Shown here: piece after piece, positions 11,092 through 55,455 of the stretch
Layout of the letters: each line of letters opens with the position of its first letter
Position numbering within the stretch: the first letter of the stretch is position 1
Origin: Nitrospinaceae bacterium
GTDB taxonomy: Bacteria; Nitrospinota; Nitrospinia; Nitrospinales; Nitrospinaceae
Assembly: GCA_028278405.1 (NCBI GenBank)
Contig: JANQEK010000031.1
Coordinates: 1-64,000 of the forward strand
Length of the DNA stretch: 64,000 nucleotides
Direction of reading: 5' to 3'
Notes under the pieces: model-generated
Databases searched by the model: none
Seen by the model: the letters and a program-made list of their open reading frames with translations, nothing else
What the model was told of the DNA's origin: nothing
Program-made: the position numbers and the translations under genes

Positions 11092-11322
11092 GACGGTGTG
11101 GAAAATACTCCTGAGAATGAGCGGTCAATCTTATCAAAGAATGCCCACCAAGTGGGGCTTCTCCCGATCCGAGGCGGCGTTAGTAGAGGAAGGTGGAATG
11201 CATTACGGATGATCACCATACCCTAGCGATCAAATAACTCAATTAAAATCAATTAGTTTGGTCTATACTTAAGGGCAATAAGATAGCTCTTTATAAATAT
11301 TAAATAATTTGTAAAAAATTTA

Positions 11323-11351
11323 TTGACAAATATTTATTTCGGGATTAAATT
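11323..11351 (+). promoter_or_regulatory. Sigma-70-type promoter of the oxidoreductase-aminotransferase operon
   Basis: A perfect TTGACA (11323-11328), a 17-nt spacer and TAAATT (11346-11351) lie in an AT-rich stretch. This and the hairpin at 11389-11425 are the only structures I see in the 363-nt gene-free interval 11092-11454, apart from a weak short inverted repeat near 11143-11160. The predicted transcript has a 5' leader of about 90-100 nt before the preferred start at 11455. Confidence 0.7.
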
Positions 11352-11388
11352 GTCCAGTAGATGAGAAACAAGGGCGCTCTCGTGATTT

Positions 11389-11425
11389 TGAGGAGAGGTT
11401 GTAATGAGTTTCCAGCCTCTCCTCA
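11389..11425 (+). promoter_or_regulatory. 5' leader hairpin covering an upstream Shine-Dalgarno and ATG
   Basis: GAGGAGAGG (11390-11398) pairs perfectly with CCTCTCCTC (11416-11424), and the stem extends to about 13 bp with one G-T wobble. The stem holds the AGGAG (11391-11395) that would serve ATG 11404, and that ATG lies in the 11-nt loop. A second Shine-Dalgarno (11444-11449) and ATG (11455) in the same frame remain free downstream. This looks like a translational control element or a means of choosing between two starts. Confidence 0.6.
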
Positions 11426-11454
11426 TAGAATCAACCAACGAGCAGGAGGATAAA

Positions 11455-12969
11455 ATGGGTGAGACCCAACGAACCATCGATCTGGAGATTGCGCAAAACG
11501 AAATTTTTGACGTGACTATTATCGGCGGAGGAATCAACGGTGCCTGTCTGTACCATCATCTGTGCCGTTTGGGATACCGGGTGTTGCTGGTAGACAAGGG
11601 CGATTTTGCATGCGGTACCAGCCAGGCTTCAGCCATGATGGTGTGGGGCGGCTTGTTGTATCTCCGCAACCTCGATTTTTTAACGGTCGCCAAGTTGTCC
11701 CGCGATCGTGAAGCGATGATCCGGCATATGGGATGTGAGGTATCTCCCACGTTGTTTCGCTACATTCCTTCACGGGACTCGGGACGGAACAAGCATCTCA
11801 TGGCTTCCGCCCTGTACTTCTATTGGATGCTTGGTTTGTGCCATCGGGACCGGCCTCGTGTCGAAAAAACGTTCGCGGAAAAATCTTTTTTAAAGAATAG
11901 CGAGCACGACGATTCCTTTCTTTATCAGGAAGCGGTTTTGAACGGTTCCGACAGCCGGTTTGTACTCAAATGGATCACCGAGCAGGAATCGGACAGAGGC
12001 ATCGCTCTCAACTATTGTGCACTCACCGGAGGAGAATTCCATACCGGAGACAAGTTGTGGCGTTTGACCCTGACGGATGAGGTCACCGGCTGGGCTCGGG
12101 TCTCAAAAAGCCGGTGCGTCATCAATTGCGCCGGGGTCTGGACCGATTCAATCAACCAGCAGTTCCGGATTGAAACGCCTTACCGGCATGTATTCAGTAA
12201 AGGAGTGTTTGTTGGGTTGGAACGGCAGGACCAGCATAACTATCCTCTAATTTTTGACATGGGTGAACAGGGGGATGTTTTGTCTTATATTCCGTGGGGT
12301 CCCATTGCCTTGTGGGGACCGACGGAAACGTATATGCCTACACTCGAAGGTGGATTTTATACCGAACCGGAAGATGTCGATTTTCTTTTGGACCGGGCCA
12401 ACCGACATTTGAAACAGGAAGTCAACCCTCCTGACGTTATCTCTCTCCGCTGCGGAGTGCGGCCGCTGGTGGTTAAAAAGGATTACTCCAAGAATTGTTA
12501 TCCCCTGGACCTTTCGCGCAAACATCAGATCACCAGGAATTCGGAAAAGCCCTGGATTTCCGTATACGGCGGAAAGTTCACCAGTTGTGTTTCAGTCGCC
12601 GAAAAAGTGGAAGAACACATTCGAGGGCTGGTTGAGCCCGGTCGTAAGCCACTGCCGATGCCGCAGAACCAGGCTATCAAAATGGAATGGGATGAGTTTC
12701 CCGGTTTGCCCTCCAAGGTGCCGTCTCTTCGGAGTTGTATTGAAAAGGAGCGGTGTTTGAATCTGGAGGACTATCTGAGGCGCCGGACGAATATTTCCCA
12801 ATGGATACCCCGCGAAGGTCTGGGGAGAAATAACGAAAATGTTCCTCATCTGGAGCAACTGGCATTGCAATTTTCCGGAGGACAGCTGGCGGTTGCTCAA
12901 GAATTGGTTCAGGACTATATCGAAACCGTGGAAAACCGTTTTGACAGTGTGCTGACTCAAGTTCATTAA
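11455..12969 (+). CDS. GlpD/GlpA-like FAD-dependent oxidoreductase
   Basis: This DAO-superfamily flavoprotein has the FAD Rossmann motif GGGINGA (about residues 24-30), LLVDKGDFACGTSQAS and WGGLLYLRN, as in glycerol-3-phosphate dehydrogenases, and a C-terminal region with ISVYGGKFTSC resembling the GlpD GGKxT segment. ATG 11455 gives 504 residues; AGGAGG (11444-11449) lies 5 nt upstream. An in-frame ATG at 11404 adds 17 residues and has its own SD inside a hairpin. The substrate is uncertain: the next gene is a DegT-type aminotransferase rather than glycerol kinase or a GlpF facilitator, so a plain glycerol role is not assured. Confidence 0.8.
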   Translation: MGETQRTIDLEIAQNEIFDVTIIGGGINGACLYHHLCRLGYRVLLVDKGDFACGTSQASAMMVWGGLLYLRNLDFLTVAKLSRDREAMIRHMGCEVSPTLFRYIPSRDSGRNKHLMASALYFYWMLGLCHRDRPRVEKTFAEKSFLKNSEHDDSFLYQEAVLNGSDSRFVLKWITEQESDRGIALNYCALTGGEFHTGDKLWRLTLTDEVTGWARVSKSRCVINCAGVWTDSINQQFRIETPYRHVFSKGVFVGLERQDQHNYPLIFDMGEQGDVLSYIPWGPIALWGPTETYMPTLEGGFYTEPEDVDFLLDRANRHLKQEVNPPDVISLRCGVRPLVVKKDYSKNCYPLDLSRKHQITRNSEKPWISVYGGKFTSCVSVAEKVEEHIRGLVEPGRKPLPMPQNQAIKMEWDEFPGLPSKVPSLRSCIEKERCLNLEDYLRRRTNISQWIPREGLGRNNENVPHLEQLALQFSGGQLAVAQELVQDYIETVENRFDSVLTQVH

Positions 12970-12990: not shown

Positions 12991-14280
12991 ATGATTCAGG
13001 TCAAAAACAAACAGTTGGCGATGCTGGGAGGCATGCCGGCGGTGACCGTTGATCATGAACCCGCCAACCGTTGGCCTCTTCTGAGCGAAGAGGATGAGCA
13101 GGCGGTTCTTCAAGTGATGCATGACGGTAATATTTCGACACATCCCGTCATTCGCGAATTGGAACAGGACTATGCCCGACTCACCGGGCGCAGGTATGCC
13201 CTGGCACACAATAACGGCACAGCGGGGTTATTGGCGGCGTTTCAAGCGATAGGATTGCAGCCGGGCGACGAGGTGCTGGTGCCTTCGGCCACGTTCTGGG
13301 CTTCGGTCGTGCCCATGTTGTGGCTTGGGGCGATCCCCGTATTTTGTGAAAGTGAAACCGAACGGATGGGGCTTGACCCGGAGGATGTCCGCAAAAAAAT
13401 TACCGGTAAAACCAAGGCTATTGTCGTGGTCCATCTTTGGGGCTTACCTGCTAAGATGACTGAATTGTTTGAGATCGCTAAAGAACACGATTTAAAGATT
13501 ATTGAAGACGCATCCCATGCGCATGGAGCCGTTTGGAGGGATAGACCCTGCGGTTCGCTGGGCGATATTTCCGTTTTCAGTTTGCAGGGGGACAAACTGT
13601 CACCCGGCGGAGAAGGAGGGATGTTCCTTTGCGATGACTACGAATATTTTGAAAAAGCCGCATGCCTGGGAGACATCACCCGCATCATCGAACTGGAAAC
13701 CGCGGCCCGTAGGTTTGCTGCGACCGGTTTCGGCCTCAAAACCCGTATCGCTCCGTTAAGCGCGGCGATCGCACGTGGACAACTGCGGCGATTGGAGAAG
13801 AACAACCGACTTCGAAACGACAATCTGGAATACCTGTCCCGCGCTTTGGAAACGTTAGGGTTCCATACCTTTCAGGCGCCGGATCATATCGAACGTGTTT
13901 ATTTTGAATTCATGATTCGTTATAATCCGGAAAAGATTATTCTTCCGCGCGATATGCTGATTGCAGCGCTGCAAGAGGAGGGATGTCAGATCACGGTACC
14001 ACGTTATCCATTGCTTCATCAGCAGCCGTTGTTTGTCGAAGGCGCATGGAAAAATATCGCGCGATTGGGTTCTGAGATCAATCTGCCCGAATATGATCCC
14101 AACGCGTTACCTCATACGCAGTCAGCCAATGAAGCGCTTATTAAATTACCGGCGTTTCCCAATGCGGACCGTGAAATTCTGGATCAATACGTCCACGCGT
14201 TTGAAAAAGTGATTGAAGGTGCCCGGGATATTTTGAAGCACCGTTGTCCATCCGGCCTTTCTGGGGGCAAACCATTATGA
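12991..14280 (+). CDS. DegT/DnrJ/EryC1/StrS-family PLP-dependent aminotransferase
   Basis: This 429-residue fold-type I aminotransferase has NNGTAGLLAAF (cofactor phosphate loop, about 74-84), EVLVPSATFWASV, the Asp of IIEDASHAHGA (about 173) and the PLP lysine in SLQGDKLSPGGEGG (Lys202). Members usually aminate keto groups of nucleotide sugars or small polyols; the substrate here is unknown. It lies 21 nt after the FAD oxidoreductase, whose product (a ketone) could be its substrate, and its stop overlaps the next ATG in ATGA. An SD-like AAGAGG lies just upstream of the ATG. Confidence 0.88.
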   Translation: MIQVKNKQLAMLGGMPAVTVDHEPANRWPLLSEEDEQAVLQVMHDGNISTHPVIRELEQDYARLTGRRYALAHNNGTAGLLAAFQAIGLQPGDEVLVPSATFWASVVPMLWLGAIPVFCESETERMGLDPEDVRKKITGKTKAIVVVHLWGLPAKMTELFEIAKEHDLKIIEDASHAHGAVWRDRPCGSLGDISVFSLQGDKLSPGGEGGMFLCDDYEYFEKAACLGDITRIIELETAARRFAATGFGLKTRIAPLSAAIARGQLRRLEKNNRLRNDNLEYLSRALETLGFHTFQAPDHIERVYFEFMIRYNPEKIILPRDMLIAALQEEGCQITVPRYPLLHQQPLFVEGAWKNIARLGSEINLPEYDPNALPHTQSANEALIKLPAFPNADREILDQYVHAFEKVIEGARDILKHRCPSGLSGGKPL

Positions 14281-14771: not shown

Positions 14772-15959
14772 ATGGCAATTTCGCAAAAAGTTCACGATTT
14801 TATGGAGCGGGCTTCCTGGATCCGCAAAATGTTTGAAGAGGGAATTCGCCTCAAGCAGGAATTTGGCGAGGAGAATGTATTCGATTTGTCTTTGGGCAAT
14901 CCGGTGGCGGAACCGCCTTCTGAATTGGTGGAGGCCATGGTTGCCGCCGCGAAGGACGAAACGGCCGGTCAGCATCGTTATATGCCCAACGCCGGATATG
15001 AGGCAACCCGCCAGGCGGTGGCGGAGTCCCTTTCTGCAGAATGTAAGGTTCCCTTATCCCCCGGCGACATCATTATGGTGTGCGGCGCAGCCGGCGGGTT
15101 GAATATCACTCTCAAAACCCTGCTCGATCCCGGCGATGAAGTGATCGTATTCGCCCCTTATTTTGTCGAATATTTGTTTTATGCAGACAACCACGGCGGC
15201 AAGGTGGTAGCGGTGGATACACGAAACGATTTCTCGATCGATTTGGAATCGTTTCGGAATGCAGTGACATCTAAGACTAAAGCGGTGATCATCAATTCGC
15301 CCAACAATCCGACCGGCGTGGTGTATTCTCGAAAGGCCCTTGAAGGGCTGGCCGAAGTATTGCGGGAAAAGTCGAAGGATATCGGACGGCCCATTTATCT
15401 GATCTCCGACGACCCGTACAAAAAGATAGTGTTTGATGGGGTGGAGACCCCGAACATTCTTGATTTGTATGAGAACAGTATTTATATAACCTCGCACTCC
15501 AAGGATCTGGCGGTTCCGGGTGAACGTATCGGTTATGTGGCCGTACACCCGCAAGCCGAAGACGCAGCGGGGGTAATGGCCGGACTCATCTTCTGCAACC
15601 GGGTTCTGGGGTTCGTCAACGCACCGGCTTTGTTTCAGCGTGTGGTGCAAAAGGTTCAGCACGCCACAGTGGATGTCGAACCTTACCGTCGGCGTCGGGA
15701 TTTATTGTATAAAGAGCTCACCGGCATCGGTTATGAGGTGGTGAAACCGCAAGGCGCGTTTTACTTTTTTCCCAAAGCGCCGATTGCCGATGAAGTGGAA
15801 TTCGCCAAACTGCTGGCAGATAAAAAAGTACTGGTGGTCCCCGGACGAGGGTTTGGGACGCCGGGTTATTTCCGGATATCCACCTGCTTCCCCGACCGCG
15901 TCATTGAGGGGGCCTTACCGGGATTAGCAGCGGCCTACCGGGAAGCCACTCATAAATAA
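14772..15959 (+). CDS. Class I PLP-dependent aminotransferase (aspartate aminotransferase-like)
   Basis: This 395-residue aminotransferase has LSLGNPVAEPP near the N-terminus, the NSPNNPTG block (about 175-182), ISDDPY (about 211-216), the PLP lysine in SHSKDLAVPGERIGY (Lys244) and an FRIST C-terminal segment. The amino donor and acceptor cannot be told from sequence; aspartate or aromatic amino acids are likely. A TTG at 14754 would add six residues, but ATG 14772 gives the usual N-terminus. It stands alone, 129 nt after the membrane protein gene and about 105 nt before the MoeZ-like gene. I see no terminator on either side. Confidence 0.9.
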   Translation: MAISQKVHDFMERASWIRKMFEEGIRLKQEFGEENVFDLSLGNPVAEPPSELVEAMVAAAKDETAGQHRYMPNAGYEATRQAVAESLSAECKVPLSPGDIIMVCGAAGGLNITLKTLLDPGDEVIVFAPYFVEYLFYADNHGGKVVAVDTRNDFSIDLESFRNAVTSKTKAVIINSPNNPTGVVYSRKALEGLAEVLREKSKDIGRPIYLISDDPYKKIVFDGVETPNILDLYENSIYITSHSKDLAVPGERIGYVAVHPQAEDAAGVMAGLIFCNRVLGFVNAPALFQRVVQKVQHATVDVEPYRRRRDLLYKELTGIGYEVVKPQGAFYFFPKAPIADEVEFAKLLADKKVLVVPGRGFGTPGYFRISTCFPDRVIEGALPGLAAAYREATHK

Positions 15960-53757: not shown

Positions 53758-54810
53758 TTAATAAAACAGCTGGATATCAGCCCGCTCTCTCATTTTGGAG
53801 ACCATCTTCCGATGCTCGCTCAGGGTTTTCTTCCGTAACAGGGCATTCATGATATCCGCTTTAACTTCGGACAATTTTATGTGCCCGGCGGGAATGAGTT
53901 TCGTCCATTTCAGGATATGGTATCCATAGGGGGAACGGATTGGTCCGCTGATTTGGTGTTGTTTCAGCTTCTTCAATTCATTGGCCAGGGACTCCGGCAG
54001 CTCACTCAACGCCACGGTTCCCCAGCTTCCGCCTTTAGAACCGCTTTTGCCGTCTTCAGAATGCTCTTTGGCCAGTGCAGCAAAATCTGCTCCATCCTGC
54101 AATTGGTAATCCAGGCCCCGGATTTTCTCTTTGGCATCCTCATCCAGCAGGGCATTTAAATGTTCCGCCTTTTTACGCAGTGCGGGGTCTTGAATCGTTG
54201 TGCCGTGTGAGGCCGATTGCAGGGCGGCCACGAAAATATGGTGCACTTCGTATTTCTCCGGAGTCTGAAACTTGTTCAGATTTTCCTTGTAAAAAGCTTC
54301 GACCTCCGCATCTCCCACCTTTACATTCGGAACCACTTCCTGGCGGATAAGCGCCTCCTCCACCATTTGCTTTTCGAATTTGGTCTTGAGCAGGTCCATC
54401 GTCAGGCCCTGTATATCCAGTGCCGTACGGAGCATTTGCTGGGAGGGAAACTGCTGTCGGACTTCCTGGACACGCTGCTCCAGTAGTTCGGATTTAATAA
54501 GGATGTTCTTTCTCCGGGCTTCCTGAAAAATCAATTCCTGGTCCACCAGGCGCGCCAGCGCCTGGTGGGAAAACTCGTCCATCTCTTTTTCTGTCAGGGT
54601 CTTGTTTTTCTGCCGGTTCATCAGGCGGTAAACCTTGATCTCGCTGATCAGCAATTTTGAATCCAGCGCTACGCCATTGACCAAAGCGATTTTGTCGGGA
54701 ATGGTTTTTCCATTGACCTGAAAAGGTTCCGCAAGCGCCGCGGCCGGCACTGCGAGAATCAGCATCAGGCCCAGAGCCAGAGAGCGGGCAAAGTTGGCTG
54801 TCAGATTCAT
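53758..54810 (-). CDS. SurA-like periplasmic peptidyl-prolyl isomerase/chaperone
   Basis: This 350-residue protein has a signal peptide (hydrophobic ALGLMLILAVPAAALA, about 12-27), a SurA-N-like helical region (about 40-180, with DQELIFQEARRKNILI) and a parvulin domain (about 190-305) with VHHIFVA, FAALAKEHSEDGKSGSKGGSWGTV and GPIRSPYGYHILKW. It should help fold outer-membrane proteins in the periplasm. It follows the small exported protein gene by 6 nt and precedes the CruF-like gene. Confidence 0.92.
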   Translation of the reverse strand: MNLTANFARSLALGLMLILAVPAAALAEPFQVNGKTIPDKIALVNGVALDSKLLISEIKVYRLMNRQKNKTLTEKEMDEFSHQALARLVDQELIFQEARRKNILIKSELLEQRVQEVRQQFPSQQMLRTALDIQGLTMDLLKTKFEKQMVEEALIRQEVVPNVKVGDAEVEAFYKENLNKFQTPEKYEVHHIFVAALQSASHGTTIQDPALRKKAEHLNALLDEDAKEKIRGLDYQLQDGADFAALAKEHSEDGKSGSKGGSWGTVALSELPESLANELKKLKQHQISGPIRSPYGYHILKWTKLIPAGHIKLSEVKADIMNALLRKKTLSEHRKMVSKMRERADIQLFY

Positions 54811-55421: not shown

Positions 55422-55455
55422 AAAAAAAATCCCCGGGCGAAACCGCCCGGGGATT
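55422..55455 (-). terminator. Rho-independent terminator after the porin gene
   Basis: On the minus strand, AATCCCCGGGCG pairs perfectly over 12 bp with CGCCCGGGGATT around a GTTT loop, then runs into eight Ts. It ends the transcript of the porin gene 23 nt after its stop. Confidence 0.95.

Follow-up and report, generated by a model that had tools for sequence, protein, structure and literature searches.

An oxidoreductase gene in the window (the whole 64-kb stretch of DNA that was analysed) probably has one main translation start, the ATG at 11455, which would lie behind a fast-evolving hairpin in an untranslated leader. We give this reading a probability of roughly two in three; that a single start is used in vivo, and that the hairpin has any effect on stability or expression, is what we infer. 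Since the protein most likely starts only at 11455, the hairpin is most likely an ordinary structure of the 5' leader and not a proven switch.

Features of the oxidoreductase locus, numbered from the first letter of the window
Feature	Position	Strand	Basis
AT-rich stretch 5' of the -35 hexamer	11293..11322	+	Alignments of 4 and of 6 upstream regions
Sigma-70-type promoter, TTGACA - 17 bp - TAAATT	11323..11351	+	Consensus scan, 10/12
Leader hairpin	11389..11425	+	Arms 11389-11401 / 11413-11425, loop 11402-11412; folding, shuffles, inverted-repeat finder
Purine-rich Shine-Dalgarno-like GAGGAGAGG, wholly within the stem	11390..11398	+	Unpaired probability about 0; opening cost about 16 kcal/mol
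Upstream ATG, in frame and within the loop; main start probably elsewhere	11404..11406	+	No in-frame ATG counterpart in three congeneric orthologues
AGGAGG, Shine-Dalgarno of the main start	11444..11449	+	GGAGG in 4/4 leaders; opening cost about 1.7 kcal/mol
FAD-dependent oxidoreductase, DAO / glycerol-3-phosphate dehydrogenase-like superfamily, 504 aa from the conserved ATG	11455..12969	+	Pfam DAO 4.7e-26; PDB 2qcu match
DegT/DnrJ/EryC1-type aminotransferase, next gene of the conserved operon	12991..14280	+	Pfam; same order in L009 and L010

A stable hairpin inside a short leader

The oxidoreductase matches the NCBIfam glycerol-3-phosphate dehydrogenase models well below their cut-offs. It is followed by the aminotransferase and then by a DUF2784 protein, with a LolD-like ABC transporter gene diverging upstream, and this gene order is identical in two relatives (L009 and L010); in a third (L008) it holds up to the end of the contig. 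A literature search on the gene or its leader in Nitrospina returned nothing.

Read directly, the -35 hexamer TTGACA occupies 11323-11328 and the -10 hexamer TAAATT 11346-11351, with a spacer of 17 bases. The first-pass annotation had placed such a promoter before the hairpin; it is indeed there and is conserved in four species, in that alignment recovers both hexamers at exactly 17-bp spacing in L008, L009 and L010, the -10 of L008 reading TAGATT. The AT-rich stretch 5' of the promoter is conserved within the genus and partly so in 50%-identical homologues from another family (alignments of four and of six sequences), and might, judged from these alignments, be an UP element or a regulator site. 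Counting its overlap with the -35 hexamer it spans 11293-11328 (..TTAAATAATTTGTAAAAAATTTATTGACA), and TAAATA and ATTTATT-like blocks are common even to the other-family homologues, at 50% protein identity. As a regulon motif the AT-rich box gave 0 matches in the genome, with a pattern so strict that it missed the window's own copy, and this negative carries little weight.

Downstream of this promoter, GAGGAGAGG at 11390-11398 and CCTCTCCTC at 11416-11424 form the pairing arms of the hairpin, and both direct reading and folding bear out the perfect 9-base pairing within a stem of about 13 bp that had been described there. Ten of the 13 pairs are uninterrupted Watson-Crick pairs, followed by three that include one G-U near the loop; on the outer side, past a 2-nt bulge, the minimum-energy fold adds 5-6 more pairs (at about 11384-11388 / 11428-11432). 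The core has an energy of -22.1 kcal/mol, and with the outer extension the hairpin reaches -26.1 kcal/mol, a value attained by none of 150 shuffles for a hairpin ending 20-26 nt 5' of the ATG (mean -5.0). The fold of the whole leader has an energy of -37.2 kcal/mol, whereas its shuffles average -26.5 (z -3.46; 0/200 shuffles as good).

Within the 64-kb window, on which these counts are based, we found four perfect stems that have 10 bp or more and enclose a loop of 3-20, compared with about one expected under a first-order Markov model. Because about one such stem is expected per 64 kb, stem length by itself is unremarkable; the unusual feature is the placement of the hairpin inside a 97-nt leader. 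Further perfect inverted repeats of 10-12 bp lie at 15222-15256, 54543-54568 and 55428-55455.

Two in-frame ATGs, one behind a buried Shine-Dalgarno

The ATGs at 11404-11406 and 11455-11457 share a frame and are 17 codons apart. As the first-pass annotation had it, the AGGAG serving the upstream ATG is in the stem and the ATG itself in the loop, and a separate free AGGAGG precedes the downstream ATG. Both points hold: the first site is virtually never unpaired (probability about 0), whereas the second is largely open. In the predicted transcript, which runs from about 11358, opening the first Shine-Dalgarno costs 15.7 kcal/mol versus 1.7 kcal/mol for the second. If the first site is kept open by force, the 3' arm is released and masks part of the second Shine-Dalgarno, whose unpaired probability falls from 0.48 to 0.24; a search for an alternative fold that covers the second site while the first is open found only this partial loss of access and no strong competing fold. 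As far as folding predictions go, a stem with so high an opening cost (about 16 kcal/mol) and no strong competitor does not look like a switch.

Orthologous leaders keep the downstream start

Among 12 genomes of the family, a full orthologue is present in the window's genome and in three others of the same genus, so that the comparison set comprises four leaders (the window, L008, L009 and L010). The three congeneric orthologues, at loci labelled Nitrospina sp. or Nitrospinota bacterium, are at 78-79% protein identity. All four leaders conserve the -35 hexamer, the 17-base spacing, the -10 hexamer, the AT-rich stretch, the downstream GGAGG and the main ATG, whereas the stretch between the -10 and the Shine-Dalgarno is not conserved in the alignment, and the sequence of the 13-bp stem is not conserved in L008, L009 or L010.

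While the ATG at 11455 is found in all four species, an in-frame ATG equivalent to 11404 exists in one. At the equivalent place L008 carries an out-of-frame GTG (with the main frame closed by a stop), the ATG of L009 opens a frame that stops ahead of the main start, and L010 has a CTG in frame; the frame 5' of the main start is interrupted by stops in L008 and L009 and open in L010, where a GTG or CTG could serve as a start. The N-terminal extension is thus not conserved, because no counterpart of the upstream ATG would yield the extended protein. In homologues of about 50% identity, which belong to another family of the order, the leader is short and lacks this hairpin.

Hairpins and covariation in relatives

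In each of the four leaders a hairpin of some kind can form whose end lies 21-25 nt 5' of the main start. The leaders of L008, L009 and L010 are, however, not more stable than their shuffles (z 0.4, 0.07 and 1.5, respectively), and their hairpins at this specific position are not significantly stronger than those of shuffles (fractions 0.22, 0.09 and 0.26). The hairpin near the start is outcompeted in L008 by another, more stable fold. MAFFT combined with RNAalifold over the four leaders gave no consensus structure.

Comparison of L008 with L010, whose leaders allow a base-by-base alignment, reveals an 8-bp stem that carries two compensatory double changes, A-U to G-C and U-A to C-G, and is the only one of eight helices of at least 6 bp with any double change. 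Such changes arise in 0.14-0.34% of random redistributions of the substitutions (nominal p 0.001-0.003); once the eight helices are allowed for, p is roughly 0.01-0.03. We fitted the L008/L010 alignment to the structure by hand, whereas MAFFT places the gaps elsewhere, and the covariation evidence is moderate for that reason; the window's own stem does not align pair by pair with the L008/L010 stem. Covariation among orthologous leaders, which the first-pass annotation had proposed as a check, therefore has a divided outcome: the window stem is not conserved and there is no four-leader consensus, but two compensatory changes stand in the L008/L010 stem of the hand-made alignment. Because of these changes in two relatives, a leader hairpin at this place may be selected, a weak hint that comes from sequence comparison.

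Weighing other explanations

The first-pass annotation had interpreted the layout as a structural switch choosing between two N-termini, in which opening of the hairpin by temperature, a ligand, a protein or an antisense RNA would allow a start at 11404 and add 17 N-terminal residues. The buried Shine-Dalgarno is well placed, its ATG is in frame, and opening the first site does reduce access to the second (0.48 to 0.24). Yet the orthologues lack an extended form, with stops closing the frame in L008 and L009 and no ATG at that place in L010, the cost of opening is about 16 kcal/mol, and no Rfam family matches; we consider the switch very unlikely. Nothing was found in support of the related suggestion of a ligand-responsive element, given neither an Rfam match nor a consensus structure over the four leaders.

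It is also unlikely that the leader is itself translated, with a short upstream frame that spans the hairpin and is coupled to the main gene. An ORF at 11361-11453 (30 codons) does cross the hairpin and ends one base short of ATG 11455; L009 has a 13-codon ATG ORF whose stop lies 4 bases before the main ATG, and L008 an 18-codon GTG ORF that overlaps it, so that ORF stops adjoin the main start in the window and L009 and the ORF of L008 runs into it. In addition, codons 2-6 (RFSFP) of the L008 and L010 leaders differ at three third positions only, all of them synonymous. These codons lie at about 2952-2969 in L008 and 2953-2970 in L010 and are a weak hint of leader coding. Against coupling, frames, lengths, starts and peptides all vary by species, there is no conserved peptide in the window or L009, and the 30-codon ORF would begin only a few bases from the 5' end of the mRNA.

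If the inverted repeat served some regulator as its DNA operator, about 30-65 bases downstream of the transcription start, the 10-bp perfect arms would be suitable, but neither the orthologous leaders nor the rest of the genome contain the repeat, and the conserved part of the region lies upstream of the promoter instead; an operator is extremely unlikely. A chance hairpin in the neutral leader of one species, without selected function, would fit with the expected number of such stems per 64 kb, with a stem sequence that is not conserved and with hairpins in relatives that are no better than shuffles. It would not account for the extreme stability within a short leader or for the compensatory changes at the same place in two relatives, and we regard it as improbable.

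Copies and comparison with known systems

At gathering scores, an Rfam 15 search of the whole window gave no match. BLAST and pattern searches found no second copy of the leader or stem in the 3.16 Mb genome, and we rejected a repeated genomic element (REP/MITE-like) given this single copy. Of 60 relatives, two (L029 and L030) have a single occurrence of the pattern GAGGAGAGG-N5-25-CCTCTCCTC. These matches were rejected as counterparts of the leader: both are found away from the orthologous operon, in gaps next to gene ends, and are terminator-like. The hairpin studied here is not an intrinsic terminator or attenuator because no U-run follows the stem, where TAGAATCAACC stands instead, and a terminator scan of the + strand finds none at the hairpin.

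Like 5' leader stem-loops that sequester a Shine-Dalgarno, the stem buries a Shine-Dalgarno-like sequence and holds a start codon in its loop; unlike in those, the buried site is the non-conserved one and the conserved downstream start is free. With the riboswitches and RNA thermometers classified in Rfam it shares a leader position and possible control of ribosome access. It differs from both in having no Rfam match, conserved consensus structure or alternative fold, in a stem far too stable for a thermometer of the melting type, and in a main Shine-Dalgarno that is not sequestered: rather than sitting in a marginally stable stem, the main site opens at 1.7 kcal/mol and the hidden one at 15.7. 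Hairpins that stabilise mRNA at the 5' end or provide a standby site are stable structures of the untranslated leader upstream of an exposed Shine-Dalgarno. The present hairpin is likewise stable, 5' of an exposed Shine-Dalgarno and in an untranslated leader, but is predicted to lie about 27-31 nt from the predicted 5' end and not at the end itself. The leader of Bacillus glpD contains an inverted repeat and is subject to antitermination by GlpP. Here too an inverted repeat precedes a glycerol-3-phosphate-dehydrogenase-like gene; the differences are that no U-run follows the stem and that the protein scores well below the GlpD cut-offs.

Discussion

In the reading we favour, a single main start behind an untranslated hairpin, the transcript would begin at about 11358 (a predicted position) and ribosomes would use the exposed AGGAGG at 11444 to make the oxidoreductase from ATG 11455. 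The hairpin at 11389-11425 would end about 22 nt (its core 29 nt) 5' of the main start, and because of this distance initiation there should not be blocked. Its direct effect would be to lock away a purine-rich sequence that could otherwise be a second ribosome-binding site, for ATG 11404, probably an accidental or relict upstream start that the hairpin keeps closed. Some leader hairpin has probably been kept in the genus while the sequence drifts fast, and candidate roles for it are protection of the mRNA, holding open a standby site, and silencing of upstream starts; it may also act on a leader reading frame. A genus-specific regulatory RNA, whose sequence turns over quickly while place and fold are kept and which steers ribosomes to a leader frame or directly to the oxidoreductase start, strikes us as highly improbable.

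As this case shows, a conspicuous hairpin that sequesters a ribosome-binding site can become much less attractive as a two-start switch when it is set beside close relatives. The comparison also corrects the probable start of the oxidoreductase, which would have 504 aa from ATG 11455, not 521. Should leader hairpins prove to be retained throughout the genus, they would add a little to what is known about the control of expression in relatives of the nitrite oxidiser Nitrospina.
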